NCBI RefSeq assembly: GCF_026343125.1
Contig: NZ_JAPEMB010000001.1
Location: forward strand, 4,965,501 to 5,029,500
Length of the DNA stretch: 64,000 nucleotides
Origin: Streptomyces sp. NBC_00094
Lineage (GTDB): Bacteria; Actinomycetota; Actinomycetes; Streptomycetales; Streptomycetaceae
Direction of reading: 5' to 3'
Part shown: positions 2,153 through 35,368 of the stretch, one piece after another
How positions within the stretch are numbered: the first letter of the stretch is position 1
How the letters are laid out: each line of letters starts with the position of its first letter
The notes under the pieces: model-generated
The model's input: the letters and a program-made list of their open reading frames with translations, nothing else
Database searches by the model: none
What the model was told of the DNA's origin: nothing
Position numbers and translations under genes: made by a program

Positions 2153-2164
2153 TCGTTCCACGCG

Positions 2165-2764: not shown

Positions 2765-2862
2765 CTTCTGCTCCTTCGGAGCCTCGTGACGCCCACCCCC
2801 GTGGTGGCGTGAGTCCACTCTCGTGAGAGGGCGGGGCGGCCGGTACCTCGGAACTCCGAGGG

Positions 2863-5387: not shown

Positions 5388-6821
5388 GTGTTGGACGTAC
5401 TGAACAGGCCCGCTACGGAAACCACCGACGCGGAGGCGCCGGAAGGGCTCTCCCCGGCGCCGCTCAGGCCCTACCTGATCATCGCTGTCGTCCTCTGCGG
5501 TCTGTACTTCCTCTACTCCTGGGTGCAGTACGCGTACTTCCGTACGCCCTCCTGGGACCTCGGGATCTTCGGGCAGTCCGTGCGGGCGTACGCCGAGTTC
5601 CGGGCCCCCGTCGTCGACATCAAGGGCCCCGGCTTCCACATACTCGGCGACCACTTCAGCCCGGTCACCGCGCTGCTCGCGCCCTTGTACTGGATCTGGC
5701 CCTCGCCCGCCTCCCTGCTCTTCGCGCAGGCCGCGCTCTTCGCCGCGTCCGCGGTCGTCGTCGGCCGCACCACGCAGCAGGTCCTCGGCAGCCGGGCCGC
5801 CGGCATCGGACTCACCGTGGCGTACGGGCTCTCCTGGGGGCTCCAGGAAGCCGTCAAGTCCGACTTCCACGAGATCGCCTTCGCCGTCCCGCTGCTCGCC
5901 CTGACCTGCCGGGCCCTGCTCCTGGGGCGCTGGACCGCGGCCGTCGCCTGGTCCGCCCCGCTCGTCCTGGTCAAGGAGGACATGGGGCTGACCGTCGCGA
6001 TGGTCGGCGCGGTCCTCTTCCTGAAGGGACAGAAGCGGCTGGGCGCCGCCCTGGCCGGCTTCGGCGTGGCGGCCTTCGCCCTCACGGTCCTCGTCCTGAT
6101 CCCGGCGGCGAGCCGGGTCGGCGAGTACGACTACTGGTCCAAGATCGAGAAGACGGGCCAGGGCGCGGAGACCTCCGTCGGGCAGGTCATCGGCGACGCC
6201 CTCGTCTCGGGCGAGCGCTGGGAGATGGTGATCTTCCTCCTCGCCGTCACCGGCTTCCTCGCCCTGCGCTCCCCGCTGATCCTGCTCGTCCTGCCGACGC
6301 TCGGCTGGCGCTTCCTGTCCCAGGACCCCAACCACTGGGGCATGCACTGGCACTACAGCGCGATCCTCATGCCGGTGGTCTTCCTGGCCCTCGTGGACGC
6401 GGTCAGGTCGGTGCGCACGTCGCCGCGCGCCTGGCTCGCCGCGTACGGGAGGGTCGCCGTCCCGGTCGCCACGGCGGTCGCGCTGGTCCTCGCCGCGAAC
6501 CTGCCGCTGCGGGAGCTGACGAAGCCGGAGACGTACCGTACGGACGCCCGGGCCGAGCAGGCGCAGGCCGCGGTGGACGCGGTGCCGGAGGGCGTGAGCG
6601 TGGAGGCGGACGTCTCGCTCCTCGCCCACCTCACGGCGGATCACCGGGTCTACTGGGTGGGCACCTCGAAGGGCGCCACCCCGGACTACCTCGCCTTCGA
6701 CCTGCGCGGCTGGTCGCAGCAGATCTCGGACCCGGCGCAGCTGGCCTCCCAGCTGCACCCGGAGGCGCGGTACGAGATCACGTACCGCTCGGACGGCTTC
6801 GCGGTGCTCAAGAGGGTGTGA
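5388..6821 (+). CDS. DUF2079 multi-pass membrane protein
   Basis: 477 aa integral membrane protein with about ten hydrophobic segments ('LIIAVVLCGLYFLYSWV', 'ALLAPLYWIWPSPASLLFAQ' and others), matching the DUF2079 family, which resembles GT-C/PMT-type glycosyltransferases. Typical features: 'TPSWDLGIFGQSV' with Asp-Leu-Gly near the N-terminus, 'DHFSPVTALLAPLYWI', 'KSDFHEIAFAVPL', and 'LVKEDMGLTVA'. No substrate is known. The frame opens with a TTG at 5352; I prefer GTG 5388, which has 'ggggga' upstream, and TTG 5391 or GTG 5385 cannot be excluded. Divergent from the FHA-kinase pair, so the 200-bp gap 5181-5387 carries promoters for both; no clear operator was seen there. Confidence 0.85.
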   Translation: MLDVLNRPATETTDAEAPEGLSPAPLRPYLIIAVVLCGLYFLYSWVQYAYFRTPSWDLGIFGQSVRAYAEFRAPVVDIKGPGFHILGDHFSPVTALLAPLYWIWPSPASLLFAQAALFAASAVVVGRTTQQVLGSRAAGIGLTVAYGLSWGLQEAVKSDFHEIAFAVPLLALTCRALLLGRWTAAVAWSAPLVLVKEDMGLTVAMVGAVLFLKGQKRLGAALAGFGVAAFALTVLVLIPAASRVGEYDYWSKIEKTGQGAETSVGQVIGDALVSGERWEMVIFLLAVTGFLALRSPLILLVLPTLGWRFLSQDPNHWGMHWHYSAILMPVVFLALVDAVRSVRTSPRAWLAAYGRVAVPVATAVALVLAANLPLRELTKPETYRTDARAEQAQAAVDAVPEGVSVEADVSLLAHLTADHRVYWVGTSKGATPDYLAFDLRGWSQQISDPAQLASQLHPEARYEITYRSDGFAVLKRV

Positions 6822-6917
6822 GACACCGCCCCCCGGGGTTCGAGACACCGCCCCCGGAGGGTGAGGCACCCGCCCCGGGTGGGACGCACCCCCGGGTGTG
6901 AGACGCCGCCCCCGGGA
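6817..6917. repeat. Degenerate ~20-22-bp tandem repeats after DUF2079 gene
   Basis: About five variants of 'ggtgtgagacaccgccccc' follow the stop codon; each contains a small gtg...cac dyad. Probably a non-coding minisatellite, possibly acting as terminator. Confidence 0.6.
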
Positions 6918-6922
6918 ACGGG

Positions 6923-6957
6923 CGAGGGCCGCCCGGCGGTGTGCCGGACGGCCCTCG
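6923..6957. terminator. Hairpin between convergent DUF2079 and RDD genes
   Basis: Nine-base arms (6923-6931 with 6949-6957) around a GC-rich loop that can itself pair. Lies 29 bases beyond the RDD stop. Confidence 0.6.
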
Positions 6958-6985
6958 GAGCGGCGGGAGGAACCCGCCTGAATCG

Positions 6986-7705
6986 TTACTTCTTGATGAC
7001 CAGCGTGCCGGCGGCACGGTCGTGCCAGCCCTGCGTCTTGCCGGTGTTGTCGAAGAACGGCGACAGGTAGACCAGGACCTGGCCGATGCCGCAGAGGAGC
7101 GCGCCGGCCATCGGGATGATCCAGCGGATGAAGCCGCCGCCGGCGCCCGGCTTGCCGCCGGTGGTCTCCTTGACGACGCGCAGGCCCACGGCCATCTTGC
7201 CGAGGGTGGCGCCGACGAAGGAGATCATCAGCCACTCGTAGAGCATGGTGGCGATGAACATGAGGAAGAGGAAGCCGAAGAAGGCGGCGAAGATGCCACC
7301 CGCGGCGGCGGCCTGCTCGTTCACGCAGTCCGTGTAGGCCTGGGTCATCGGGTCCATGTTCGTGCAGTCCTCGATGGACTCGGCCGCACCGACCACGCCC
7401 GCCAGACCGATGAACGACAGGATCCAGACGATGGCGCCGATGGCCACACCGTCGATCAGGCGCGCGGCGAACCGCAGACCCATCGAGGCGACCTTCACGG
7501 TGCCGAGGCCGTGCACGCTGATGTAGCCGTTGTTGGCCTGAAGGGTGCCCGGAGCCTGCGGGTACGCGCCCGGCTGCTGCTGCGGGTAGCCGTAGCCCTG
7601 CTGCGGCACACCCTGCGGGGCCTGCTGCGGGTAGCCGTAGCCGGGCTGCTGCGGCTGCTGGCCCTGGGGCTGGCCGTAAGGGTTGTTCGGGTCGCCGAAG
7701 CTCAT
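6986..7705 (-). CDS. RDD family membrane protein with Q/P/Y-rich N-terminus
   Basis: 239 aa. Residues 1-55 are a Gln-Pro-Gly-Tyr repeat region ('GYGYPQQ' twice), as in many actinobacterial RDD proteins. Then an RDD domain: 'GLRFAARLIDGVAIGAIVWI' with the R...D pair, a second helix, 'YEWLMISFVGATLGKMAVGL' with the conserved G-K-x-x-x-G-L, and C-terminal 'HDRAAGTLVI' with H-D-R. Three to four membrane helices. RDD proteins have no agreed single function; transport has been proposed. ATG is supported by 'ggagga' eight bases upstream. Single gene, stop TAA. Confidence 0.9.
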   Translation of the reverse strand: MSFGDPNNPYGQPQGQQPQQPGYGYPQQAPQGVPQQGYGYPQQQPGAYPQAPGTLQANNGYISVHGLGTVKVASMGLRFAARLIDGVAIGAIVWILSFIGLAGVVGAAESIEDCTNMDPMTQAYTDCVNEQAAAAGGIFAAFFGFLFLMFIATMLYEWLMISFVGATLGKMAVGLRVVKETTGGKPGAGGGFIRWIIPMAGALLCGIGQVLVYLSPFFDNTGKTQGWHDRAAGTLVIKK

Positions 7706-7966
7706 CGGGGATTTCCTCCGTGAAGATCTCTGTGCGGGGACGTCGCGGCCCGCGCGGAGGACTTTCACGGCATTTGAGCGGACTTCCCCCCGGCAGTTTC
7801 CGCGGTGCTGCGCCGGTCATCGTCGTCGCTGCGTCGCTTTCTTGTCCAGTCGGTATGTCCATGAGTTGTGCAAGTGCAATCTGTCCTGCCGCTGTCCTGC
7901 CGTATGACGGGCTGCCAGGCGGGAGCGAATTGGAACAAGTCGGGGGTCATCCGGGAGGATGTCTCC

Positions 7967-8827
7967 ATGAGCGCCCAGATTCTCGATGGCAAGGCCACCG
8001 CAGCCGCGATCAAGTCCGATCTGACCGTCCGTGTGGCGGCCCTCAAGGAGCAGGGCGTCACGCCCGGCCTCGGTACGGTCCTGGTCGGTGAAGACGCCGC
8101 CAGCCAGAAGTACGTGGCGGGAAAGCACCGTGACTGCGCCCAGGTCGGCATCGCCTCCATCCAGCGCCACCTCCCGGCCACCGCCACGCAGGAGGAGATC
8201 GAGGCGGTCGTACGGGAGCTGAACGAGGACCCGACCTGCACCGGCTACATCGTCCAACTCCCGCTGCCCAAGGGCATCGACGAGAACCGCATCCTGGAGC
8301 TGATGGACCCGGCCAAGGACGCGGACGGTCTGCACCCGACCAACCTCGGCCGCCTCGTGCTCAACGAGCCCGCGCCGCTGCCCTGCACCCCGAACGGCGT
8401 CATCACCCTGCTCCGCGCGCACGGCGTGGAGATCGACGGCGCGGAGGTCGTGGTCGTCGGCCGCGGCGTGACCATCGGCCGTCCGATGCCGCTCATCCTC
8501 ACCCGCCGTTCCGAGAACGCGACCGTGACCCAGTGCCACACCGGCACCCGGGACCTTTCGGCGCACCTGCGCAACGCCGACATCATCGTGGCGGCGGCCG
8601 GCGTGCCGCACCTGATCAAGCCGGAGGACGTGAAGCCTGGCGCGGCCGTCCTCGACGTCGGCGTCTCGCGCAACGGCGAGGGCAAGATCCTCGGCGACGT
8701 GGACCCCGGTGTCGCCGAGGTGGCCGGCTGGATCTCCCCGAACCCGGGCGGTGTCGGCCCGATGACCCGCGCGCAGCTCCTCGTGAACGTCGTCGAGGCC
8801 GCCGAGCGCGCGGCCGCGGCGCTCTGA
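7967..8827 (+). CDS. folD: Methylene-THF dehydrogenase/methenyl-THF cyclohydrolase
   Basis: Cytosolic bifunctional enzyme linking 5,10-methylene-THF and 10-formyl-THF, the donor used by purN and purH in this window. 286 aa, normal length. Motifs: '[18 protein letters not shown]' with the catalytic Lys, '[15 protein letters not shown]' (PLP motif), '[13 protein letters not shown]' (dinucleotide loop) and '[16 protein letters not shown]'. The family's usual YVxxK appears as YVAGK, with Lys retained. ATG 7967 has 'gggagga' eight bases upstream. DUF3017 gene begins one base after its stop, so they form an operon. No riboswitch hallmark was seen upstream. Confidence 0.97.
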
Positions 8828-8828
8828 C

Positions 8829-9293
8829 ATGGCCGCCGAGGGTGGGGTCTCCGGGGGCGATGCCATCGAGGGCGAGGCGGCCAAGGTGGCCAAGGCGGCC
8901 AAGCGGCGCCGGTTCGGCCTCACCACCGACACGGCGCGGCCCGAGGGCGGCGGCCGGGCGGCGCCCGGCGACGCCTCCGCGCCCGCGCGTCAGTGGCCCC
9001 TGCTGACCGTCCTCGTCCTCGCCGGCATCGGACTGGTCGTGGTCGGGGCGGACCCGTTCCCGCAGGCCTTCCGGGTGGGCACGATCCTGGTCGGGGCCGC
9101 GCTGCTCGTGGGGGCCGTGATGCGCCGGGTGGTGCCGTCCGTGGGCATGCTGGCCGTCCGGTCCCGTTTCACGGACATGATCACGTACGGGGTCATGGGT
9201 GGCCTGATCGTGCTGCTCGCGCTCATGGTGCAGCCGTATCCCTGGCTGCGGATCCCGTTCCTGGAGGACATCCTCCACCTCACGGTGACCTAG
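8829..9293 (+). CDS. DUF3017 small membrane protein
   Basis: 154 aa. Charged N-terminal 60 residues then three hydrophobic helices: 'PLLTVLVLAGIGLVVVG', 'VGTILVGAALLVGAVM', 'YGVMGGLIVLLALMV'. This is the DUF3017 family that directly follows folD in many Streptomyces; function unknown. The ATG lies two bases after the folD stop and relies on coupling or on sequence inside folD for initiation. A strong hairpin follows. Confidence 0.88.
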   Translation: MAAEGGVSGGDAIEGEAAKVAKAAKRRRFGLTTDTARPEGGGRAAPGDASAPARQWPLLTVLVLAGIGLVVVGADPFPQAFRVGTILVGAALLVGAVMRRVVPSVGMLAVRSRFTDMITYGVMGGLIVLLALMVQPYPWLRIPFLEDILHLTVT

Positions 9294-9308
9294 GTTCCCT
9301 CCGCGTAC

Positions 9309-9344
9309 GGAGCCCGCCCTCTCCCCCGTGGGAGGGCGGGCTCC
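9309..9344 (+). terminator. Terminator of folD-DUF3017 operon
   Basis: Inverted repeat 'ggagcccgccct' / 'agggcgggctcc' with one bulged position and loop 'cccccgtg'. Sixteen bases after the stop. Confidence 0.8.
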
Positions 9345-9555
9345 GCTGCGATCAAGGGTCATGTACGCGCCAATGTGGTTCAAGTTCCGGTGGCCCGCTG
9401 TGGCACGGAAGTGACCATTCCGCCACCTCGCCTCCGCATACGGACGCGGAACGCCGCCGGTTCATCCCCTGATCACCCCCGTATGGGCCCCACGTCACGC
9501 CCGGAGCTGCCATCCTTCGGGGACGCAGGGGAGGTCGTGGACAAGGGGGGCGCAC

Positions 9556-10632
9556 ATGCCTGGCTGGAAGGCGCTGTCGGACGAACTCGACCCGGACGTC
9601 CGTGCGTTCACGGAGCGGATCCGTCGGCTGATCGACCGCAGCGGCCTCGCCGTCACGGCCGTCGCCGAACGCACCGGACACGACCGGAGCGCGTGGGACG
9701 CGTACCTGAGCGCGCGTCTGCCCGTCCCGAGGAGCGCGGTCGCGGCACTCGCCGAGGTGACGGGCGCCGACCCCGGGGACCTCGCGCAGGCATGGGACCG
9801 CGCGGACCGTACGTGGCGACGGAGCGACGCACCGGGGGGCCGCCGCGACGGGGACGGCCCCGGCGGCCCTGACGACGGGGAGGCTCCTGGCGGCTCCGTC
9901 GGCCGGGACGGCTCCGAGGGTTCGTACGGCCCCGACGGCTCGTACGACCCCGGCGGCCTCGGTGACGACCGGACCATGCAGATCCGGCGCCTCGAACGGG
10001 CACCGTCCCCGCTCCCCGGCCCCCGGCCCTCCGACGGCTCGCTCTCCGACGACCCGCCCTTCGGCCCCCGGCTCTCCGACAGCCCCCACTCCGACGACCC
10101 GCCCCCCGGCTCCCCGCCCCCGCCCCGCCGGCGGTCACTGCTCCTCTACGGCGCCGGGGTCCTCGGCGCCCTGCTCGTCGTCACCGCCGCCCTCCTCCTC
10201 GTCGACCTGGGCGGTACGGACGGTACGGACGGCGGGGCCGCCGCCCCGCCCTCGTCGACGGCTCCGACCGCCGCGCCCCGCACCAGCCTTCCCGCCGGGG
10301 TGCAGTGCACCGGCCCCGGCTGCACCGGCCGGGACCCGGAGGCCATGGGGTGCGGCGGGCCCCTCGCCACCACCGTCGCCCGCACCCGGGTCGGCGCCGC
10401 CCTGGTCGAGGTCCGCCACAGTGCGACGTGCGCGGCGGCCTGGGCCCGGATCACCGGCGCGGTGCCGGGGGACGCCGTCGACGTGGAGGTCGCGGGTGCC
10501 ACCCGGAGCGCCACGGTCTCCGCCGGGGCCGACACCGACGCGTACACCCCGATGCTCGCCGTCACCTCGGGCGCCGACGCGCGGGCCTGCGCCACGCTGG
10601 CCGACGGGCGCGAGGCCTGTACCGCGAACTGA
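9556..10632 (+). CDS. HTH and DUF2690 domain membrane-anchored protein
   Basis: 358 aa. N-terminal 75 residues form a XRE/Cro-type helix-turn-helix ('LIDRSGLAVTAVAERTGHDR' followed by a recognition-helix-like segment). Residues about 90-190 are a low-complexity Gly/Asp/Pro/Ser linker. One membrane helix follows ('LLLYGAGVLGALLVVTAALL'), then a secreted DUF2690 domain of about 120 aa with paired cysteines ('GVQCTGPGCTGRDPEAMGC', 'ATCAAAWARI', 'CATLADGREACTAN'). The layout suggests a membrane-tethered DNA-binding or RodZ-like protein, but the function of DUF2690 is unknown. Transcribed alone; 'ggg' sequences precede the ATG without a strong Shine-Dalgarno. Confidence 0.82.
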   Translation: MPGWKALSDELDPDVRAFTERIRRLIDRSGLAVTAVAERTGHDRSAWDAYLSARLPVPRSAVAALAEVTGADPGDLAQAWDRADRTWRRSDAPGGRRDGDGPGGPDDGEAPGGSVGRDGSEGSYGPDGSYDPGGLGDDRTMQIRRLERAPSPLPGPRPSDGSLSDDPPFGPRLSDSPHSDDPPPGSPPPPRRRSLLLYGAGVLGALLVVTAALLLVDLGGTDGTDGGAAAPPSSTAPTAAPRTSLPAGVQCTGPGCTGRDPEAMGCGGPLATTVARTRVGAALVEVRHSATCAAAWARITGAVPGDAVDVEVAGATRSATVSAGADTDAYTPMLAVTSGADARACATLADGREACTAN

Positions 10633-10663
10633 CGCGCCGTATGCCTCGGACGAGTGGCAGTGA

Positions 10664-11833
<1,170 letters not shown>

Positions 11834-11860
11834 GCCGTGGCCTGACGGCCTCGCAATGCC

Positions 11861-11912
11861 CGGCGCCCCCGGCCCGTACGACCGACCGTACGGGCCGGGG
11901 GCGCCGTTTTTT
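11861..11912 (+). terminator. Strong intrinsic terminator of mdh
   Basis: Perfect 20-bp stem (11861-11880 with 11887-11906), six-base loop, followed by six T residues; one of the few canonical T-tail terminators in the window. Confidence 0.95.
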
Positions 11913-12009
11913 CCGCGCCGACACGGAGTCCTCCCCTCCCCTATGCTGTCTCCTCGGTTCTCGGCCAAGTGGACCAAAAACAAGGACAGTTCCGCACATC
12001 GGGGGAGTT

Positions 12010-13800
12010 TTGACGCAGTCGTTCGTGCCTCAGCAGCCAGGGCAGCCACCCGCCACGCCACCGAGTGCGGCGCCCGGCACGCCACCGAACGCCCCGCCGA
12101 GCACGCCGCCCGCCGTCGACCCGCGCCGCTTACCTTCCGCCAGCGAGTCGACCCGCCTGCTCTGCGCCGGCACCTACCTCGACGACGGCTTCCGTGACGC
12201 CGTCATCGACCAGCTGTACGTCCACGAGGAGCGTTTCGCCGCCCCCTCGCTCGGCTTCGACGCGAGCCGCGTCCTCGCGCACGCGCTGCGCGCCCGCCGC
12301 GTCGAACTCGCCTGGGCCGCCGGCATCCTCGCCCTCTGGATCATCGCGATCCCGCTCACCAAGGGCCTGATCACCCTCCTGATCGTGCCGTTCCTGGTCC
12401 TCGGCCTCGCCCGCTGGGTCCGCGGCCGGTCCGCCTCCGCACCCGCGTACCGCACCGTCCCCGCCTTCCTCCTGCGCTGGTACGGGCGGATCGTGTTCGT
12501 CCAGTCGGCGCTGCTCCTCCTCTTCCTCGCCTTCGGTGACGACGAGTCCGGCTGGGAGTTCCTCGGCGAGGTCTCCGAGGCGGGCGAGTTCCTCGGCCTC
12601 GCGACGAGTTTCGCCGCCGAGTCGCTGTGGGGCATCGGCCCGCTGGAGGTGTGGATCACCATCGCCGTGCCGCTGCTCGTGGCCTGGGCGGTGGCGACCC
12701 AGCGCGGCCAGTTCGCCCGCGCGCTCACCGAGGAGCTCTCCAGGGAGCGCTTCCCCGACCTCCGCTCCGACCCGGCCGAGCAGACCGAGAGCGCCCGCTC
12801 CCGCCGCCTGCGCGACCGGATCCGCATCGAGCAGCACGCGCGCCTGGTCATGTACGGAGCCGACGACCCGTTCTGCGGAGCGGGAACGCCGTACGAGCCC
12901 TGGTCGCTCTCCATCGAGCTGCGCCCCCGCAAGAACCTCGACGGCGAGGCGCCCGAGCCGCTCGACAACAGCGCGATCATGCGGCACGTCGTGCCGCTGG
13001 TGGAGGCGCTGCGCGTGCCCTCCCCGCACGGTTCGCAGCAGATCCAGGCGGCCGTACGGGACCGGCTGCGCGAACTGGAGATCGACGAGGTCGTCTTCCT
13101 GCCGGTCGACGGCCTGCCGGCCCGCACGGCCGCCCCGTACACCCCCGAGGGGTTCGAGCTGCACCGCTCGGGCTCCATCGAGGAGGGCGGCGAGACCCGC
13201 CGTCACTTCCTCCGCATCCGGGTCGGCGGCTGGGGCGAGGAGGTCGTCGCCACCGTGTTCGTCCGCGTCCACACGCAGGGCGGCATGCTCATGCTGGAGG
13301 TCGCGCCGCACGTCCTGCGGCCGGTGAAGCCGCTCTACCGGTACGCCGACCGGATCGCCCACCGCTACCGGCGCAACCACCACTTCGGGAAGGCCGTCTG
13401 GGCCCTCGGCCAGACCCCGCGCTCCGCCTGGCAGGCCGTCGCCACGCTCTGGCGGGCGCTCGGCAACGGCTGGCGACTGCTCACGGCGGGCCACGCGAAC
13501 GCGCTGCCCGAGGGGCCCGAGCTATCGGTCCGCGAGCTCGGCTCCGACGACGAGGCCTCCCTCTTCCAGGAGATGGACGTCAGCCGCTACCTGAAGAGCA
13601 TTCAGGACCGGGTCGCGAACGGGGTGACCATCGCGCTGCGCGAAGCCGGTTACGAGACCGCCGAGTTCGAGCAGAAGATCGTCCACGTCGCCGAGGGCGG
13701 CACGTTCATCGAGAACACCAAGGGCAACGTCACCCTCGGCAACCACAACACCGTCACCAACAAGACCTTCACCACCTCGACCGGAGGCGACCGTGGCTGA
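12010..13800 (+). CDS. Multi-pass membrane protein of unknown function with C-terminal GNVTLGNHNTV motif
   Basis: 596 aa, not recognised. A Pro-rich head (1-40) precedes a soluble stretch, then four or five hydrophobic helices between about 100 and 250 ('LAWAAGILALWIIAIPL', 'LITLLIVPFLVLGL', 'FVQSALLLLFLAFG', 'VWITIAVPLLVAWAVA'). Residues about 260-520 are soluble and charged with no known motif. The last 30 residues contain 'NTKGNVTLGNHNTVT', nearly repeated at the head of the next protein. The start is a TTG at 12010, only two bases after 'gggggag'; GTG 12025 is an alternative. Overlaps the next gene by eight bases, so the two are coupled. Function cannot be inferred from sequence alone. 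Confidence 0.75.
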   Translation: MTQSFVPQQPGQPPATPPSAAPGTPPNAPPSTPPAVDPRRLPSASESTRLLCAGTYLDDGFRDAVIDQLYVHEERFAAPSLGFDASRVLAHALRARRVELAWAAGILALWIIAIPLTKGLITLLIVPFLVLGLARWVRGRSASAPAYRTVPAFLLRWYGRIVFVQSALLLLFLAFGDDESGWEFLGEVSEAGEFLGLATSFAAESLWGIGPLEVWITIAVPLLVAWAVATQRGQFARALTEELSRERFPDLRSDPAEQTESARSRRLRDRIRIEQHARLVMYGADDPFCGAGTPYEPWSLSIELRPRKNLDGEAPEPLDNSAIMRHVVPLVEALRVPSPHGSQQIQAAVRDRLRELEIDEVVFLPVDGLPARTAAPYTPEGFELHRSGSIEEGGETRRHFLRIRVGGWGEEVVATVFVRVHTQGGMLMLEVAPHVLRPVKPLYRYADRIAHRYRRNHHFGKAVWALGQTPRSAWQAVATLWRALGNGWRLLTAGHANALPEGPELSVRELGSDDEASLFQEMDVSRYLKSIQDRVANGVTIALREAGYETAEFEQKIVHVAEGGTFIENTKGNVTLGNHNTVTNKTFTTSTGGDRG

Positions 13801-14182
13801 CACCGGCAACGACAGCAACGACAGGACCCGCGGCGGCATTCACGTCACCAACACCAGCGGCAACGTCACCATCGGCGACCACAACACCGTCACCACCACG
13901 GTGAGCGGCGCGCAGCCGGCCCGTGACCCCCAGCAGGAGGAGCTGCTCCAGGCCGTCCGCCGGCTCAGGGCCGACCTCGGCGGTGTCGTCGCCTCCGAGC
14001 AGACGACCGTCCTGGACGGCGAACTCGCCGACGCCGAGGACGAGATCGAGGGCACGGGACGTGCCGGTACGGGCCGGCTGACGCGGCTGCGCCAGGCGCT
14101 CGTGGACGCGGGGGCCGTGACCGGGATCCTCGCCTCGGGGGTGGCCGTCGGCCAAGCCGTCGGCGCCCTCCTCGGAGGGTGA
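13793..14182 (+). CDS. Small protein with N-terminal GNVTIGDHNTV motif and Gly-zipper tail
   Basis: 129 aa, not recognised. Residues about 15-40 carry 'NTSGNVTIGDHNTVT', matching the tail of the upstream protein at 13 of 15 positions. A charged helical middle follows ('LLQAVRRLRADLGG', 'LADAEDEIEGTGRAG') and the end is Gly/Ala-rich and hydrophobic ('AVTGILASGVAVGQAVGALL'), like a glycine-zipper membrane-active helix. GTG start within the last codons of the upstream gene, with 'ggaggcg' as ribosome site. The next gene starts two bases after its stop. The layout, a short motif shared between neighbours plus a helical domain with a membrane-seeking tail, recalls amyloid-type signalling pairs, but that is inference. 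Confidence 0.72.
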   Translation: MADTGNDSNDRTRGGIHVTNTSGNVTIGDHNTVTTTVSGAQPARDPQQEELLQAVRRLRADLGGVVASEQTTVLDGELADAEDEIEGTGRAGTGRLTRLRQALVDAGAVTGILASGVAVGQAVGALLGG

Positions 14183-28793: not shown

Positions 28794-29711
28794 ATGGACT
28801 GGCTGACCAAGCTCCCCGTCATCGGCCCCATGGCCACCCGCCTCATGCGGACCCACGCCTGGCACTCGTACGAGACCCTCGACGAGGTCCACTGGAGCCG
28901 GCTCGCCGCCGCGATCACCTTCCTCTCCTTCCTCGCCCTCTTCCCGCTGATCACCGTCGCGGCCGCGATCGGCGCAGCGCTCCTCTCCCAGGAGCAGCTC
29001 GACCGGATCGAGGAGAAGGTCTCCGACCAGGTGCCCGGCATCTCCGACCAGCTCGACATCGACGGGCTCGTCGCCAACGCCGGCACCGTCGGACTCATCG
29101 CCGGCGTCCTCCTGCTCGTCACCGGCATCGGCTGGATCGGCTCCATGCGGGACTGTCTGCGTGCCGTGTGGGGCCTCGACGGCAAGGACGAGGGCAATCC
29201 GGTGGTCCGCAAGGGCAAGGACGCGCTCGTACTCGTCGGACTCGGCGGCGTCGCGCTCTGCTCGCTCGCCGCGTCCTGGCTCGGCTCCACCACCGTCGGC
29301 TGGACCGCCGACCGGCTGGGCATCTCCGGCGACGGAGCGGGCGGCTACCTGCTCCAGGGGGCCGCCGTCCTCGTCGGCGTCGTCGCCGACTTCCTGATCC
29401 TGCTGTACATCCTGACGCTGCTGCCCGGCGTGCAGCCGCCCCGCCGTCGGCTCGTGGTGGCCGCGCTCATCGGCGCGGTCGGCTTCGAGCTGCTCAAGCT
29501 GCTGCTCGGCGGCTACATGCGGGGCGTCGCGTCGAAGTCGATGTACGGGGCGTTCGGCACCCCGATCGCCCTGATGCTGTGGATCAACTTCACCGCGAAA
29601 CTGCTGCTGTTCTGCGCGGCCTGGACGGCTACGGGTTCACGTCGGGATCCAGCGGCTCCCGGGAACGACGACGACGCGATCCCGGAGCGGACAGCGGCCA
29701 ACGGCGGTTGA
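28794..29711 (+). CDS. YihY/BrkB family membrane protein
   Basis: 305 aa, six hydrophobic segments. Family features: 'LDEVHWSRLAAAITFLSFLA' with the conserved A-A-A-I-T-[FY], 'FPLITVAAAIGAAL', 'LIAGVLLLVTGIGWIGSMRD' + 'CLRAVWGLD', 'LLYILTLLPGVQPPRRRLVV', 'FELLKLLLGGYMRGVAS' and 'MYGAFGTPIALMLWINFTAK'. Despite the historical label RNase BN this family consists of integral membrane proteins of unsettled function. ATG 28794; the last 83 bases overlap the convergent carboxypeptidase gene on the other strand. Confidence 0.9.
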   Translation: MDWLTKLPVIGPMATRLMRTHAWHSYETLDEVHWSRLAAAITFLSFLALFPLITVAAAIGAALLSQEQLDRIEEKVSDQVPGISDQLDIDGLVANAGTVGLIAGVLLLVTGIGWIGSMRDCLRAVWGLDGKDEGNPVVRKGKDALVLVGLGGVALCSLAASWLGSTTVGWTADRLGISGDGAGGYLLQGAAVLVGVVADFLILLYILTLLPGVQPPRRRLVVAALIGAVGFELLKLLLGGYMRGVASKSMYGAFGTPIALMLWINFTAKLLLFCAAWTATGSRRDPAAPGNDDDAIPERTAANGG

Positions 29712-30918
29712 CGAGGAAGACGGCGCCGGCGAGCAGGACGAGCACCCCGCCGGCGATGCTCAGCGCGATGCCGACCCCGCCGGACTTCTCCTCGGCCGCG
29801 ACGGGGGCCGCCGAATCGTCCGGGGCGTTCTTGCCGGGCGCCGGCTCCGAACCGTCCTCGGCCGTCCCCGTCTCCGTACGGGCCGACGTGGGCGGCACCA
29901 GATCGCCCACCGGGGTCACCTTCCCGGCCGCCGCGAAGCCCCAGTCGAGCAGCCGGGCGGTCTCCTGGTAGACCGCGTGCTGCTCCTTCGACGACGGGTT
30001 CATGACGGTGACGAGCAGCACCTTCCCGCCCCGCTCCGCGACACCCGTGAAGGTGGATCCGGCATGGGTGGTGTTGCCGTTCTTCACCCCCGCGATCCCC
30101 TGGTACGGGGCGACGCCGAGGTCACCGGTCAGCAGCCGGTTGGTGTTCTGGATCTCGAAGGTCTCGCGCTTCTTGCCCGGCTTCTGCTCGCCGGGGAAGG
30201 CGGCGCGGGGCGTCGCCGCGTACTCCCGGAAGTCCTTGTTCTGCATCCCGCTGCGGGCGATGAGCGTGAGGTCGTACGCGGAGGAGACCTGGCCCGGGGC
30301 GTCGTAGCCGTCCGGGGACACCACGTGGGTGTCGAGCGCCTGGAGCTCGGCCGCGCGGTCGTTCATGTCCTTCACGGTCTGGCGGACGCCGTTGTTCATG
30401 CTCGACAGGACGTGCACGGCGTCGTTGCCGGAGCGGAGGAAGACGCCGAGCCACAGGTCGTGGACGCTGTAGGTCTGCTTCTCCTTGATGCCGACCAGGC
30501 TGGAGCCCGAGCCGATCCCGGCCAGGTCCTGCGGAGTGACGAGGTGGTTCGTCGTCCTGGGGAACTTCGGCAGCAGGGTGTCCGCGAAGAGCATCTTGAG
30601 CGTGGACGCCGGGGCGAGCCGCCAGTGCGCGTTGTGCGCCGCGAGGACCTTGCCGCTCTCCGCGTCCGCGACGATCCACGAACGGGCGGACAGCTCCTTC
30701 GGCAGGACGGGTGCGCCGAGGCCCAGCTGCACCTGCGTACCGGGCCTGCCCAGCAGCGTGCCGCCGACCGTGGACATGATCGCGGGCGGTTTCGGCTGCT
30801 TGTCCTTCTCGTCCTTCTTCCCGTCCTTCCCGTCAGCGTGAGCTGCGGGCGCGACGGTGACGAGCGGCAGGAGTACAGCAGCGGCGACCGCCCAAGCGGT
30901 CCTCTTCGAAACAGACAC
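29629..30918 (-). CDS. D-alanyl-D-alanine carboxypeptidase (S11 family)
   Basis: 429 aa. Signal peptide ('KRTAWAVAAAVLLPLVTVAP', cleavage after AHA about 27), Lys/Asp-rich spacer, penicillin-binding domain and a C-terminal membrane helix ('GIALSIAGGVLVLLAGAVFLV') with an Arg-rich cytoplasmic end. Active-site motifs: 'LAPASTLKML' (SxxK), 'LRSGNDAVHVL' (SxN) and 'AGVKNGNTTHAG' where the third motif is KNG rather than KTG. It trims the terminal D-Ala of wall stem peptides outside the membrane. Start GTG 30918, weak ribosome site. Convergent and overlapping with the BrkB gene by 83 bases; divergent from a decayed SCO4848-family gene. Confidence 0.9.
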   Translation of the reverse strand: MSVSKRTAWAVAAAVLLPLVTVAPAAHADGKDGKKDEKDKQPKPPAIMSTVGGTLLGRPGTQVQLGLGAPVLPKELSARSWIVADAESGKVLAAHNAHWRLAPASTLKMLFADTLLPKFPRTTNHLVTPQDLAGIGSGSSLVGIKEKQTYSVHDLWLGVFLRSGNDAVHVLSSMNNGVRQTVKDMNDRAAELQALDTHVVSPDGYDAPGQVSSAYDLTLIARSGMQNKDFREYAATPRAAFPGEQKPGKKRETFEIQNTNRLLTGDLGVAPYQGIAGVKNGNTTHAGSTFTGVAERGGKVLLVTVMNPSSKEQHAVYQETARLLDWGFAAAGKVTPVGDLVPPTSARTETGTAEDGSEPAPGKNAPDDSAAPVAAEEKSGGVGIALSIAGGVLVLLAGAVFLVNRRWPLSAPGSRRRRSREPLDPDVNP

Positions 30919-31002
30919 GGTCGAGAACGTACAGGCACGGAACAGGTATCCGAACCCCGCCGGGCGGTTCGTCCGGGCTCGTCCACCCGGACGCGGGGGC
31001 CG

Positions 31003-31075
31003 GGCCCGCTTCTCCTGGTTCCCGCTCGCGTTCGGGGCGTGGAGCTGGTTCATCTGGATCACCTTTTATACGTAA
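31003..31075 (+). pseudogene. N-terminal fragment of an SCO4848-family membrane gene
   Basis: Reading 'RFSWFPLAFGAWSWFIWITF' then YT and a TAA stop, it matches the first third of the intact copy at 33467-33703 ('RVSWFLLAFGVWSWVIWATF') at 15 of 20 residues. There is no start codon in the expected place. It lies divergent from the carboxypeptidase gene, probably the native position. Homology stops at 'tggatcacctt' (31055-31065), the same eleven bases at which the other fragment resumes (33804-33814). Confidence 0.75.
31055..31065 (+). repeat. Left 11-bp direct repeat, possible att/target duplication
   Basis: 'tggatcacctt', identical to 33804-33814; see the two pseudogene fragments. Confidence 0.6.
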
Positions 31076-31228
31076 GCAACTGGGCACAGTCGGCGGCTGG
31101 CCGGGGGTGGGAGGTGGTTCACCCCTTCAAGACGTCGTCAGGCCCGGTCGGGATCCAAAAACTGTCCGCCCGGCTTTCGACGACTCATGGCCGCCGTGCG
31201 CCCGGCACGTACTCCGCCCGTACGGCCC

Positions 31229-31369
31229 TTACCGCTGCGCCCACCACGTCCCCGCTGCCCCGCCGGCGGTGGTGATCAGGGCGACGAGCCATCCGGGGAT
31301 GCGCTGGACGGTCAAGTGCAGTCCGCCGACGCGGAGTTCGAGGGCGGGGCGTGTGGGTGTGGACGACAT
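31229..31369 (-). CDS. 46-aa single-pass membrane peptide
   Basis: Sequence begins 'SSTPTRPALELRVGGLHLTV' and continues into a hydrophobic helix ('GWLVALITTAGGAAGTWW') ending AQR. I recall similar very small membrane proteins beside XRE regulators and mobile-element genes of Streptomyces, but no function. ATG 31369 has 'gggagag' upstream. Lies in the island between the two SCO4848-family fragments, downstream of the Nudix gene by about 280 bases on the same strand; that gap (31370-31652) holds only a small dyad acggat/atccgt at 31429-31447 and no gene. Confidence 0.65.
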   Translation of the reverse strand: MSSTPTRPALELRVGGLHLTVQRIPGWLVALITTAGGAAGTWWAQR

Positions 31370-31652
31370 GGCGCTCTCCCTGTTCGACGAGATGAATCGA
31401 CGCTCTGAGGGTGTGCCCACGTTGCGCTACGGATCATAACTATCCGTGCCAGCGCATGATCCGGTGCCAAGAGCACGGGGGGCGCACAGCCCGCTAGGCG
31501 AGGCGCATCCGGCTGGTGGGGCGGCCACAGTCGGCGGTTTTACTCGGAGACAGCACGCGCTCATCTGCTGTGGGCTGGTCGCGGCAACCATCCCCGACGC
31601 CCCCCGTACGGGTAGTCCGCTTGGTCGGTTCCCCCTCCGTGGCCGGTAGCCC

Positions 31653-32123
31653 CTAGCCCAGGTGCGGTGCGGTGCGGTGTTCCAGGAAGTGTCGGATGCG
31701 CAGCCGTTGCGTGTGGTGCATGGGAAGCGAGTCGAGTTCTTCGGGCGCCACGAAGCGGAGTTCCGTGCTCTCTTCCGAGATGGCCAGGACGCCGCCGACG
31801 ACGCGGGCGGTGAAGCAGACGTTGAACTGTCGGCGTACCTCTCCGTCGCTGTACGCGATGACATGCCGGGGGTCGGTGTACGTGCCGACGAGTCCCGTGA
31901 TCTCGACGTCCAGGCCGGTTTCCTCCTTGACCTCCCGTACGGCCGTGCCGGGCAGGGAGTCGTCCATGTCCATCGCCCCGCCTGGCAGCGCCCACAAGTC
32001 GTTGTCCCGGCGTCGTTGGAGGAGTACGCGGCCAAGCTCGTTTGTGACGACGGCAGAGGCTGCCACGACCAGGCTGTTCGGCTGGGGGGCGTCCGGATCG
32101 TCGTAGTACTCGGTTCGTGCCAC
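31653..32123 (-). CDS. Nudix hydrolase
   Basis: 156 aa cytosolic enzyme cleaving a nucleoside diphosphate linked to another moiety. Complete Nudix box G-x5-E-x7-REUXEEXGU near residue 50: 'GGAMDMDDSLPGTAVREVKE' then ETGLD. Upstream 'NDLWALPGGA' and downstream 'RHVIAYSDGEVRRQFNVCF' and 'RFVAPEELDSL' fit the family. Starts with GTG five bases after the stop of the XRE regulator, forming a two-gene operon. In the integrative plasmid pSAM2 a Nudix protein (Pif) mediates transfer immunity, which makes its place in a possible integrated island notable. Substrate unknown. Confidence 0.92.
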   Translation of the reverse strand: MARTEYYDDPDAPQPNSLVVAASAVVTNELGRVLLQRRRDNDLWALPGGAMDMDDSLPGTAVREVKEETGLDVEITGLVGTYTDPRHVIAYSDGEVRRQFNVCFTARVVGGVLAISEESTELRFVAPEELDSLPMHHTQRLRIRHFLEHRTAPHLG

Positions 32124-32128
32124 GGCGC

Positions 32129-32869
32129 TCAGCTTTCCACGGGGCGGGCCGATTCCCATACGGCGTCGAAGCTCCCCGCGCAAGTGTCGAACATGCCCCC
32201 GTCGCCGTGGCGCCGAAGGTGCCACACCGGCGCACCGTAGGCGTTGACGCCCCACACATGCGCGTTGACCAGCATCTGATCGTCGGCGCGGTACAGGCTG
32301 TTGTAGAGGGTCGTTCCGTGCGTGCGCAGCTCGATTCCCGGCACGTCCGCGAGGGGCCGGTAATGCAGGAGAGCGAGACGGCAGCGGGATTCGATTCCGT
32401 GGCCGAACTTCTCTTCCCGTCCGCGCTGGCGGACGTTGGGATCGTCGGCGTCACCCACCGCGATGCGGACCGTACAACCATCACCAGCCCGTTCGCGCAA
32501 GAGGTCGTTGAGACGGGGGTACGCCTGGTGCAGGAAGACGGCCGCGTACACCAGCACGTCGATTCGCTTCCGCGCCTGGGAGAGGAGATCCACGAAGACC
32601 GACACGGGCAGATCCGCCCGCTGCCCGTAGAGGGCGACGAGTTCGGGGCTGACAGCGCGCGCGGCACGTGCCTGCCGGAGTTCCGGCCACAGGGCATGCA
32701 CGTCTTCTCCGAGTGCTTCCGCTGCCTCCAGCGCGGTTGCCCGTCGTGGAGTACGCCCGAGATCGACCCACCGTTCCACGGACTTGGGGTCGACACCAGT
32801 GGCTTCAGCCAGGGCGGCGTGTGTCCAACCGCCTGCCTCCATGACGGCTCGAAGTCGCTCGTTCGGCAC
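32129..32869 (-). CDS. XRE regulator with DUF5919-like (PLD-like) C-terminal domain
   Basis: 246 aa. Helix-turn-helix at 8-60: 'GGWTHAALAEATGVDPKSVE' and 'RWVDLGRTPRRATALEAAEA'. From about 95 on a domain like DUF5919: 'SVFVDLLSQARKRIDVLVYA', 'CTVRIAVGDADDPNVRQRG', 'IELRTHGTTLYNSLYRADDQ' and 'MLVNAHVWGVNAYGAPVWHL'. It resembles a phospholipase-D/HKD fold (H-G-T then N/D) with degenerate catalytic residues, probably a ligand sensor. GTG start; divergent from two small genes across a 116-bp gap with repeated ggacgtt boxes. First gene of an operon with Nudix. Confidence 0.85.
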   Translation of the reverse strand: MPNERLRAVMEAGGWTHAALAEATGVDPKSVERWVDLGRTPRRATALEAAEALGEDVHALWPELRQARAARAVSPELVALYGQRADLPVSVFVDLLSQARKRIDVLVYAAVFLHQAYPRLNDLLRERAGDGCTVRIAVGDADDPNVRQRGREEKFGHGIESRCRLALLHYRPLADVPGIELRTHGTTLYNSLYRADDQMLVNAHVWGVNAYGAPVWHLRRHGDGGMFDTCAGSFDAVWESARPVES

Positions 32870-32889
32870 GCTTGCGCCCCTTGGCTTCC

Positions 32890-32929
32890 GGACGTTCTGA
32901 GGGACGTTCTACACGTGACGGGACGTCCC
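32890..32929. promoter_or_regulatory. Repeated operator boxes in the XRE divergent promoter
   Basis: Two 'ggacgttct' direct repeats (32890-32898, 32902-32910) and a perfect palindrome 'gggacgtccc' (32920-32929), with a further 'gggaaacgt' after it. Likely binding sites of the XRE regulator. Confidence 0.55.
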
Positions 32930-32985
32930 GAAGTGGGAAACGTACGAGGTTCCTCCGTCCTGACGACCGGCGCGACGATCACGCC

Positions 32986-33180
32986 ATGAGTGAGCCCACG
33001 CGATACAGCACCCCACCGATCGAGCTGCCGCTGGACCTGGAACGAGAACCGGAGCCTGCCGACGGGTGCGCGGGGTGCGCCGAGCTGGAGGCCGTACGGG
33101 CCCGTGCCCGAGTCGTAGGCGACTGGACGACCGTGAGCGACTGCAACGTCTACGTGCGGCGCCACCCCGAGGGGCACTGA
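32986..33180 (+). CDS. 64-aa protein with CxxC motif
   Basis: Acidic head ('PPIELPLDLEREPEPADG'), then 'CAGCAELEAVRARARVVGDW' and 'VSDCNVYVRRHPEGH'. Proteins of this form (C-x-x-C followed by a helix and 'DCNV..RRH') occur beside XRE regulators in Streptomyces accessory regions; function unknown. ATG start divergent from the XRE gene. Overlaps the next gene by one base (TGATG). Confidence 0.7.
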   Translation: MSEPTRYSTPPIELPLDLEREPEPADGCAGCAELEAVRARARVVGDWTTVSDCNVYVRRHPEGH

Positions 33181-33377
33181 TGGTCGTCCGCGCGGACATC
33201 GGCAAGCCGGTCAGGGACCACGCTGGAAGGGTCGGCATCCTGCGTGACGTGATCCGGGACTACGAGGACCCTGCCGACATGCCCGGAGAGCGCAGGAGGC
33301 GGCCGACGGCGTTCGTGTGGCCCGAGGGCGGGGGCCGTGAGTGGTTGGTCCCGCCGGACACCGTGACGCGTATCTGA
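33180..33377 (+). CDS. 65-aa basic protein of unknown function
   Basis: 'VVRADIGKPVRDHAGRVGIL', 'DVIRDYEDPADMPG' and 'PTAFVWPEGGGREWLVPPDT'. A likely small beta-barrel with Trp/Gly-rich end; not recognised. ATG overlaps the stop of the preceding small gene, so translation is coupled. A hairpin cccgtcc/ggacggg at 33414-33432 lies beyond its stop, facing the intact SCO4848-family gene. Confidence 0.65.
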   Translation: MVVRADIGKPVRDHAGRVGILRDVIRDYEDPADMPGERRRRPTAFVWPEGGGREWLVPPDTVTRI

Positions 33378-33466
33378 GACCCCACCCCCGGTGAGGCCCA
33401 GTCGTCAGTGGTCCCGTCCAGCCGGGGACGGGTCCACTTCCTCGCGCCCCCCGTGGTGCCGGGGCT

Positions 33467-33703
33467 TTACTTCTTGCCCGCTCGGACGCCCCGGAAGCCG
33501 ATCACGCCGACGGCCGTCCCTAGGATGAACGACGTGACAGCGAGGGCGAGGTGGACCCAGAAGTACGCAGTCGGGTTTCCCGCGTCGTCGAAGGCGAGAC
33601 CGCTGCCGTCCTTCCAGAGGTTCTTCGCGAAGGTCGCCCAGATCACCCAAGACCACACGCCGAACGCGAGCAGGAACCAGGAGACGCGGCGGCTGAGCTT
33701 CAT
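33467..33703 (-). CDS. SCO4848-family small membrane protein, intact copy
   Basis: 78 aa with two membrane helices: 'VSWFLLAFGVWSWVIWATF' and 'FWVHLALAVTSFILGTAVGV' + IGFRGVRAGKK. The middle 'DGSGLAFDDAGNPTAYFW' is the conserved extracellular loop of the family. Function unknown. ATG has 'aagga' upstream. Members usually lie next to the carboxypeptidase and metallophosphoesterase genes; here the copy at that native position, on the plus strand, is broken and this intact one is on the minus strand inside the island. Confidence 0.85.
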   Translation of the reverse strand: MKLSRRVSWFLLAFGVWSWVIWATFAKNLWKDGSGLAFDDAGNPTAYFWVHLALAVTSFILGTAVGVIGFRGVRAGKK

Positions 33704-33788
33704 GGGGTGTCCTTCGGGGTGGGCTGGGCGTTCCCTGCCAGTATCGAACCGGCCCCGCCGGGCCTTACAGGTGGGGCTCTGTACGCTG

Positions 33789-33994
33789 GCGGTCAGCTGC
33801 GTATGGATCACCTTCATCGAGAACCTCCGGACCGACGCAAGCGGCGTCGCGTTCGACGACGCGGGTGACCCGACGGCCTGTATCCGGGTCCATCTGCCGC
33901 TCGCCGTCACGTCCTGTGTCCTGGGGCGGTGATCGGTGTGCTCGGGTTGCGTGGAGTGCGCGCCACGCGCCGCGACTCCGGTCACAGCTCCTAG
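33789..33994 (+). pseudogene. C-terminal fragment of an SCO4848-family gene
   Basis: Reads 'WITFIENLRTDASGVAFDDA' then GDPTACIRVHLPLAVTSCVLG, matching residues about 20-60 of the intact copy; near 33927 the frame shifts and the homologous end 'AVIGVLGLRGVRA' continues in another frame to a TAG about 30 bases before the metallophosphoesterase start. Its left limit is 'tggatcacctt' (33804-33814), identical to the right limit of the N-terminal fragment at 31055-31065. Upstream 'gtatcgaacc' (33741) also resembles the region before the left fragment. Confidence 0.75.
33804..33814 (+). repeat. Right 11-bp direct repeat, possible att/target duplication
   Basis: 'tggatcacctt', identical to 31055-31065. 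Confidence 0.6.
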
Positions 33995-34024: not shown

Positions 34025-35368
34025 GTGCTCGCCTTCCTGCTGGTCCTGGTCGTGGTCCTCGCCGTGCTTGTCGGGGTCCACTGGTACGTGTGGCGGCGGC
34101 TCGTGCGCGACGTGACGGTGCCGGGTGGCCTGCCCCGTCGGCTGGGTACGGCCGTGCTCGTCGCCCTGCCGTTGTTCTCGCTCGCGGCCCTGACCTCCGG
34201 GCGCCTCCGCGCGCCCTTCGGGTTCCAGCAGGCGGTGGCCTGGCCGGGCTTCATGTGGCTCGCCACGCTCCTGTACCTGACCCTCGCCCTGGTCGTCGGG
34301 GAGGCCGTGCGCCCCGCCCTGCGCGCCTGGCTCGCCCGCCGCGCGACGGCCGCGGCTCCGGCGGCGGAGGCCCCGGCGCCCGCGCCGGCCCCTGTTCCCG
34401 AGCCCGTCTCCGTACCGTCGTCTGCGTCTGCGTCTGCGTCTGCGTCCGCGTCCGAGACCGCGTCCGCGTCCGAGCCCGCGCCCGCCGCGGACACGGTGGC
34501 GGCCCCGGCCCCCGCCGACGCCTCCGCGACCCCCGCCGACGTCTCCCGCCGCCTGTTCGTCTCGCGTGTGGTCGGCGGCTCCGCCGCGGCCGTCGCGCTC
34601 GGGACCGTCGGGTACGGCACGTACGGCGTGCTGCGCGGCCCCCGGATCAAGCGCGTCACCGTCCCGCTCGCCAAGGTGCCGCGCGCCGCGCACGGCTACC
34701 GGATCGCCGTCGTCTCCGACATCCACCTCGGGCCGATCCTCGGCAGGGCCCACAGCCGGCGGATCGTGGACACGATCAACTCCACCCAGCCCGACCTGAT
34801 CGCGATCGTCGGCGACCTCGTCGACGGCACCGTCGAGGACCTCGGCTCCGCCGCCGAACCGCTCGCCCGGCTCCGCGCCCGCCACGGCTCCTTCTTCGTG
34901 ACGGGCAACCACGAGTACTTCTCGGGCGCCGACGCCTGGGTCGACCACGTACGCGAACTCGGTCTGCGCCCGCTGCGCAACGAGCGCGTGGAGATCGCGG
35001 CCGGCTTCGACCTCGCCGGCGTCGACGACGTCGCGGGGGAGAGCGAGGGCGAGGGCCCCGACTTCGTCCGCGCCCTCGGCGACCGCGACCGGGCCCGCGC
35101 CTCCGTCCTCCTCGCGCACCAGCCGATCGTCGTCCACGACGCCGTACGCCACGGCGTGGACCTCCAGCTCTCCGGCCACACCCACGGCGGGCAGCTCTGG
35201 CCGGGCAACTACATCGCCGAGCTGGCCAACCCGACGGTCGCGGGTCTCGAACGGTACGGCGACACGCAGCTGTACGTCTCGCGGGGCGCGGGCGCCTGGG
35301 GGCCCCCGGTCCGGGTCGGTGCCCCCTCCGACATCACGATCGTCGAACTCGCCTCGAAACAGGCTTAA
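34025..35368 (+). CDS. Membrane-anchored metallophosphoesterase
   Basis: 447 aa. Four N-terminal membrane helices ('MLAFLLVLVVVLAVLVGVHW' onward), a Pro/Ala spacer with (Ser-Ala) repeats (about 125-160) and a calcineurin-like phosphoesterase domain (about 220-440). Metal motifs: 'AVVSDIHLGP' (D-x-H), 'AIVGDLVDG' (GDxxD), 'FVTGNHEYFSG' (GNHE), 'LLAHQPIV' and 'LQLSGHTHGGQLWPG' (GHxH). The set is complete. GTG start, ribosome site 'gagggggttcgggg'. Probably once followed the plus-strand SCO4848-family gene in an operon. Substrate unknown. Confidence 0.9.
   Translation: MLAFLLVLVVVLAVLVGVHWYVWRRLVRDVTVPGGLPRRLGTAVLVALPLFSLAALTSGRLRAPFGFQQAVAWPGFMWLATLLYLTLALVVGEAVRPALRAWLARRATAAAPAAEAPAPAPAPVPEPVSVPSSASASASASASETASASEPAPAADTVAAPAPADASATPADVSRRLFVSRVVGGSAAAVALGTVGYGTYGVLRGPRIKRVTVPLAKVPRAAHGYRIAVVSDIHLGPILGRAHSRRIVDTINSTQPDLIAIVGDLVDGTVEDLGSAAEPLARLRARHGSFFVTGNHEYFSGADAWVDHVRELGLRPLRNERVEIAAGFDLAGVDDVAGESEGEGPDFVRALGDRDRARASVLLAHQPIVVHDAVRHGVDLQLSGHTHGGQLWPGNYIAELANPTVAGLERYGDTQLYVSRGAGAWGPPVRVGAPSDITIVELASKQA

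Follow-up and report, generated by a model that had tools for sequence, protein, structure and literature searches.

A small island inside a Streptomyces SCO4848 gene is a probable remnant of an integrative element that carries an inverted copy of its own target

Results

An intact inverted copy lies between the halves of a split SCO4848 gene

The 64,000-nucleotide stretch of Streptomyces sp. NBC_00094 analysed here (contig NZ_JAPEMB010000001.1, positions 4,965,501 to 5,029,500; hereafter the window) contains an island of 2,749 bp that separates the two plus-strand halves of a resident SCO4848 gene and holds a complete minus-strand copy of the same family. The 5′ resident fragment ends in TGGATCACCTT at 31055–31065, the 3′ fragment opens with the identical 11-mer at 33804–33814, and a tblastn search of the interval from the carboxypeptidase to the metallophosphoesterase gene returns three SCO4848 matches: residues 6–26 on the plus strand (71%), residues 20–64 on the plus strand (60%, with one stop) and an intact copy of 78 amino acids (aa) on the minus strand. 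The split gene, shared 11-mer and inverted copy described in an initial annotation of this DNA are thus all present, as seen in the sequence, the repeat listing and the tblastn matches. The copy at 33467–33703 belongs to the SCO4848 family, scoring 106.2 bits against NF046117 (cut-off 45); the 3′ resident fragment reaches 30 bits, below the cut-off, and the 5′ fragment, as read from the sequence, has lost its start codon. The features of the locus are listed below, with positions in the window; att denotes an attachment site, HTH a helix-turn-helix and ORF an open reading frame.

29629–30918, minus strand: D-Ala-D-Ala carboxypeptidase gene, left flank, host (PF00768; same neighbour at canonical loci)
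31003–31065, plus strand: resident SCO4848 5′ fragment, start codon lost (sequence, tblastn)
31055–31065, plus strand: attL crossover core TGGATCACCTT, then element arm to about 31090 (repeat D15; φBT1 attP)
31092–31205 (approximate), plus strand: φBT1-type large serine integrase remnant, about 114 of 1,750 bp, frameshifted (nucleotide identity to relatives)
31229–31369, minus strand: 46-codon ORF, common to elements L043 and L151 and prophage contig L131 (no Pfam, NCBIfam or PHROG match)
31653–32123, minus strand: Nudix hydrolase gene, cargo (PF00293; 85% in L151)
32129–32869, minus strand: XRE-type HTH regulator gene with weak DUF5919-like C-terminus, cargo (86% over 194 aa in L151)
32986–33180, plus strand: 64-codon ORF, cargo (no family match in Pfam, NCBIfam or PHROGs)
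33180–33377, plus strand: 65-codon ORF, cargo, with a 73% relative in L045 (ORF listing, relatives)
33467–33703, minus strand: intact carried SCO4848 replacement copy, 78 aa (NF046117; carried clade 100/100)
33740–33745, minus strand: −10-like GATACT box ahead of the carried SCO4848 (upstream comparison of 16 carried and 69 canonical genes)
33778–33814, plus strand: attR, consisting of element arm CTCTGTACGCT... and core TGGATCACCTT at 33804–33814 (sequence, carrier comparison)
33804–33994, plus strand: resident SCO4848 3′ fragment, frameshifted (sequence, tblastn, 30 bits)
34025–35368, plus strand: metallophosphoesterase gene, right flank, host (PF00149; neighbour in 60 of 69 canonical loci)

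The repeated 11-mer forms family D15 in the repeat listing of the window, where another 11-mer is listed in three copies, and an 11-mer recurring within 6 kb is, taken alone, not unusual. The pair is meaningful because it falls in the same codons of one gene family and contains the known φBT1 att core, and because the exact TGGATCAC also stands at both ends of two related islands, L041 and L151; in the other carriers described below it is altered at one end or both. Target duplication by an insertion sequence was rejected, as no transposase was matched among the window genes and the repeat is an att core.

The gene content named in the initial annotation held up in part: the Nudix gene is clear (PF00293, expect value (E) 2e-20) and the small ORFs are there, the XRE-type gene is barely above threshold (helix-turn-helix 27.6, cut-off 27), and the DUF5919 likeness was found only below it (16.3, cut-off 23.5). 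A search of the window for tRNA genes found none, its genes gave no Pfam match to TraB/FtsK-type transfer or Rep proteins, nor did the subset of the relatives' cargo ORFs that was tested, and the window genes submitted to Pfam, NCBIfam and PHROGs matched no terminase, portal or capsid family, apart from a weak Nudix-like hit to one portal family.

The split point is the attachment site of phage φBT1

Phage φBT1 integrates in SCO4848, with a 9-bp sequence common to attB and attP, a 36-bp minimal attB and a GT core (PMC5937489, PMC3836970). The annotated φBT1 attP and the split point in the window hold the same TGGATCAC core, so that the island sits at the φBT1 attB core within SCO4848. At this core, 43 of 69 canonical SCO4848 genes (defined below) have TGGATCAC, 25 have TGGGTCAC and one has TGGACCAC. 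Vectors integrated in SCO4848 have been reported to delay spore germination (PMC7460540) and sporulation (PMC13346255) via the co-transcribed SCO4849, and an antisense RNA to span the φBT1 site in three species (PMC3765725); judged by position, the gene downstream at carrier loci is presumably the SCO4849 counterpart. A role for CTCTGTACGCT as an outward promoter for the metallophosphoesterase gene was considered and dropped, as the motif was not seen in L034, L040, L043, L044, L049, L152 and L153.

Relatives without the island have one uninterrupted gene

We scanned genomes for SCO4848 and used the best 80 of 426 confirmed stretches. SCO4848 is divergent from the carboxypeptidase gene in 69 of these 80 loci, here called canonical, and inverted in 11. 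The uninterrupted plus-strand gene that the initial annotation proposed to look for in island-free relatives is therefore present in those 69; the metallophosphoesterase gene was found in 60 of them, and in the other nine orientation was judged against the carboxypeptidase alone. Extra DNA separates SCO4848 from the carboxypeptidase in nine of the 11 inverted loci, down to the shortest, L041, with 570 bp core to core and an integrase remnant; the other two (L048, L049) reach a contig edge before the carboxypeptidase side. An island-free locus with a minus-strand SCO4848, which would have spoken against an insertion, thus did not turn up among the 11. The flanks of L067 align to the island-free locus of S. 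anulatus JCM 4721 (L104) at 93–94% on both sides, only 25 bp apart.

Together with the window and loci from genomes G015 (L034), G346 (L151), G385 (L152) and G333 (L153), the inverted loci make 16 carriers, all of which have the inverted copy in this position and which have decayed to different degrees; G224 and L046 are one record. Among the carriers with species names are S. diastatochromogenes ATCC 21481, S. bikiniensis, S. filamentosus, S. roseicoloratus, S. wedmorensis and S. anulatus NRRL B-2873. The order in the relatives is N-fragment, integrase, cargo, inverted SCO4848 and C-fragment, and the cargo varies from carrier to carrier. Both resident fragments are recognisable in the window, L041, L042, L045, L047, L067, L151 and L153; L040 and L043 show the N-part alone, L048 and L152 the C-part alone, and L034, L044, L046 and L049 neither. 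A recognisable core stands at the attL position in L040–L043, L045, L047, L067 and L151, with one change in L042, L045 and L047. The window element is one of a family of elements.

Locus L153 is rearranged at 1847–10219, where a second integrase fragment adjoins a C-fragment, which suggests two successive insertions. Separately, ten of 295 genus genomes, most rated more than 90% complete, gave no SCO4848 match at E 0.01 (G037, G050, G112, G120, G121, G152, G156, G186, G201 and G271).

Most carriers keep a φBT1-type serine integrase or its remains

Integrase genes or their remains were detected in 13 of the 16 carriers. A full frame stands in L042, L045, L047, L067 and L151; L046 has a frameshift, L152 a single stop, and L034, L041, L043, L044, L153 and the window retain pieces or fragments. 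The window has no functional φBT1-type integrase; what is left of it, at about 31092–31205, is 77–81% identical in nucleotides to the integrase DNA of L041, L043, L045, L046, L067 and L151. Over its full length, the L045 integrase shares 65% identity with that of φBT1, and the S. diastatochromogenes integrase half is 69% identical to it, with other phages at 34% or less among the matches listed (30 of 227). The lost integrase of the window element is of this φBT1 type, and no close relative of it was found elsewhere in the same genome (best 30%).

An integrase at 75% identity or more occurs in five of 392 genus genomes (G224, G333, G346, G371 and G385), a minimum for carriers, since decayed elements, among them those of the window and G015, escape this search; two further genus samples, which overlap, gave G224 alone (of 295) and G224 and G333 (of 343). 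Beyond the genus, among 121 family genomes, some of the same genus, there were two sole matches at E 1e-100, both 44–45% identical. The five full-frame integrases evolve under constraint, their ratio of non-synonymous to synonymous substitution (dN/dS) being 0.11–0.23 (10 pairs).

The best-preserved relative, L151, measures 5,623 bp core to core. Its integrase is an open frame of 590 aa (582 aa from GTG), followed by an HNH gene, an ORF of the 46-codon type, Nudix, HTH and DUF7848 genes and the inverted SCO4848, all between the N- and C-fragments. Joining its flanks yields an uninterrupted SCO4848 of 81 aa; since the split gene stays intact once joined, this insertion looks recent. The same flanks meet in island-free L063 with an 8-bp overlap (84–86% identity), and in L095 at 85–90%. 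Positions 31655–32716 of the window are 79% identical to L151, in the same order.

Carried and resident copies have separate ancestries

The 91-row SCO4848 tree unites the 15 carried copies in a single clade (100/100) and places the seven resident C-fragments among the canonical genes, that of L067 within its own S. anulatus group. A tree uniting the carried copy of L067 with its fragment and five host-group genes was rejected (approximately unbiased test, p 0.0003). The clade persists at 17 rows (100/100) when L153 and L163, the copy from a phage-like record discussed below, are added, although the placement of these two is less certain because the trees contain no true outgroup genus. The carried copies being a separate clade and the resident fragments grouping with their hosts' normal genes, the element brought its copy with it; the two gene trees thus give the carried copy another ancestry than the broken resident. 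The canonical rows were the 69 from the best 80 hits; L042_fragC and L153_carried are absent from the 91-row tree and L042_fragC from the enlarged one, and L034, L040, L043, L044, L046, L049, L152 and L153 provided no C-fragment row. The canonical rows come from records titled Streptomyces with one exception, L095, which bears the title Microtetraspora glauca; as this locus falls within Streptomyces, next to S. hydrogenans, the title looks wrong.

The carried copies are under purifying selection, with a median dN/dS of 0.105 (14 copies, 91 pairs; L152 and L153 left out), and none of the 16 translated carried stretches has an internal stop. From its intact frame and low dN/dS, the carried copy would work in place of the resident gene.

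All 16 carried copies have a GATACT box about 35 nt upstream of the start, and the carried gene has a GAAGGA-like ribosome site. In the 16 of 69 canonical genes shown, a GATACT-type box stands directly before the ATG, and TACTG lies within 75 nt in 67 of the 69. This difference in box position means that the carried cassette has its own leader, and suggests that canonical SCO4848 transcription is leaderless, unlike that of the carried copies.

The carried copies diverge from attB

Measured against the canonical attB consensus, each of the 16 carried copies is changed at 8–11 of 36 positions, compared with a median of 2 (range 0–9) for the 69 canonical genes. One left-arm base separates the two groups, being C in all 69 canonical genes and G in all 16 carried ones. 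Mismatch density in carried copies is 0.25 inside attB and 0.12 outside (canonical, 0.08 and 0.06), yet fixed differences are not significantly concentrated in attB (Fisher p 0.12–0.71, six comparisons). Since, in addition, the carried copies share ancestry and the φBT1 integrase has been reported to tolerate many attB changes (PMC5937489), this divergence is only suggestive of self-protection.

Discussion

A model for the origin of the island

We propose, at a probability of about 0.92, that the island is what decay has left of an old, small integrative element that had a φBT1-type integrase, entered at the attB inside SCO4848 and carried an inverted replacement for the gene that it splits. 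In this model, the large serine integrase would recombine the attP of the element with attB inside the host SCO4848, integrase catalysis being the presumed cause of the insertion, and would thereby break the resident gene up, leaving the two plus-strand fragments at either end. The right end of the element would deliver a complete inverted SCO4848 with its own promoter box and ribosome-binding site, replacing the destroyed function; the integrase and resident fragments would later decay, and selection would retain the replacement. An integrative element that targeted SCO4848 and brought its own copy had been put forward in the initial annotation, and the island-free relatives, joined flanks and gene trees support it.

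Several observations weigh against this reading. The window element cannot be shown ever to have moved, because its own integrase is almost gone; only five of the 16 carriers have a full integrase frame, and no integrase was detected in L040, L048 and L049, of which the last two lie on contigs that end early. Resident fragments on both sides occur in only 8 of 16 carriers. A tblastn search (E 0.1) of the 16 element regions and L131 did not find gp3, the recombination directionality factor (RDF) of φBT1, and the cargo proteins tested, a subset of the ORFs, matched no conjugation genes. The gene tree is built on about 228 nt, and the host tree was made quickly with FastTree and is weak in some branches; neighbouring carriers (the window with L044; L034, L040 and L041) may share one old insertion.

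Relationship to phages

The strongest alternative, whose chances we rate a little short of even, is that the elements are remnants of full-length φBT1-like prophages with their structural genes deleted, rather than small elements in their own right. The element integrases are 65–69% identical to that of φBT1, and in L151 and L042 an HNH gene follows the integrase, as it does in the 40.5-kb IMG/VR contig L133 (L151 HNH 47% identical). Contig L131 (IMGVR_UViG_2811995052_000005) holds, at 2328–14083, a φBT1-like prophage that occupies the same site in SCO4848. It has the carboxypeptidase gene, the N-fragment of SCO4848, attL and an integrase at 80% identity, after which come genes for terminase, portal and capsid; the contig stops short of attR. 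Beyond the integrase, however, the 16 islands match proteins of L131 only around the 46-codon ORF. Near-minimal elements of integrase and SCO4848 recur across hosts (about 2.2 kb in L047; two genes spanning about 2.1 kb in L152), and the five integrases are intact at the low dN/dS given above.

A second phage-like record, the 43.4-kb G490 (L163/L168; IMGVR_UViG_2739367648_000002), encodes portal and capsid proteins; one end has a serine integrase gene, the opposite end an inverted SCO4848 that belongs to the carried clade. Its integrase is of another type, without a match to that of L151 at E 1, and host DNA may make up part of its end. The records L195 and L196, whose integrases are 96–97% identical to that of G490, hold no SCO4848, so the SCO4848 at the end of G490 may belong to the host; the terminal stretches of two close relatives contain nothing that matches the last 3.9 kb of G490. 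In G120 and G121, whose integrases are 63% identical to that of G490, the stretches fetched contain neither SCO4848 nor its neighbour genes. A search of viral contigs with the carried copy gave 24 pattern-matching stretches, none of them confirmed, and an alignment search led to two loci; the phage records of the collection, φBT1 included, gave no SCO4848 match at E 1, and plasmids only two distant ones.

A further reading, less likely than not, is that the carried gene was recoded so as no longer to be an attB; the element would then be protected from recombining with itself and, through the split in the resident attB, would shut competing phages out of the φBT1 site while the host gene stays in work, occupying the site without loss of the gene and possibly spreading as a phage satellite. 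For a satellite there are only hints, namely that no RDF was found and that the integrase–HNH end is phage-like.

Insertion history

A single ancient insertion, inherited vertically and followed by restoration in the island-free relatives, strikes us as very improbable. Eleven carriers and the window do share a broad host clade with the island-free loci L063, L068, L082, L095 and L097, but the S. anulatus-group carrier L067 is far away, and on the host tree of 82 loci (seven low-coverage loci left out; L151, L152 and L153 not placed) carriers are patchy and the trait needs at least 7 changes. Cargo differs among carriers, and the split gene of G346, intact when joined, points to a recent event. 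Tandem duplication, the alternative named in the initial annotation, or local inversion of the resident gene with decay of one copy, scarcely merits credence: 33741–33763 does resemble 30946–30965, by eye a shared promoter-like sequence, but the gene trees reject it, with carried and resident copies in separate clades, and cargo, integrase remains and att arms lie between the copies and recur elsewhere.

Known systems and significance

The elements are like φBT1 (Lomovskayavirus BT1) in target gene, att core, an integrase 65–69% identical and the placement of the integrase beside attP. They differ in their att arms, in carrying SCO4848, which has no match in φBT1, and in that no structural genes were matched in the cargo tested. 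Actinomycete integrative and conjugative elements resemble the window element as small Streptomyces elements with integrase, HTH and Nudix genes; the window element, unlike them, has no tRNA target and no matched transfer or replication gene. Islands in tRNA and tmRNA genes restore the end of the gene by sequence at the crossover. As in the element, integration splits the gene there and island sequence makes good the loss (PMC4383910), but what the element supplies is an entire copy, inverted, evolving separately and provided with a leader of its own. The engineered φBT1 vectors pNG1-4 likewise cancel the cost of integration in SCO4848 through an extra gene; they are man-made and, as described in passages of PMC7460540, carry SCO4849 under the SCO4848 promoter, not SCO4848 itself.

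The element is of a known general kind, with the whole, separately evolving replacement of the target gene looking new; in titles and abstract openings of the open-licence literature we recognised no report of a natural element carrying its own target gene. The φBT1 attB is widely used as a vector site in Streptomyces, and the elements look like a natural answer to the integration cost that engineers offset with an added gene (cf. PMC7460540). They offer a clean case of how mobile elements offset such a cost, and suggest a role of some importance for SCO4848 in the host. Where SCO4848 is inverted, a genome probably has no normal φBT1 attB, which is relevant to vector choice.

As to the cargo, in PADLOC-DB the window Nudix protein and a kinase-like protein of L040 had weak to moderate matches only and the other four proteins tested had none; a function in anti-phage defence was rejected on this result. 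HTH proteins about 80% identical to that at 32129–32869 occur on the large Streptomyces plasmids NZ_CP109476, NZ_CP108236 and NZ_CP108578, and the HTH cargo is therefore shared with other mobile DNA.

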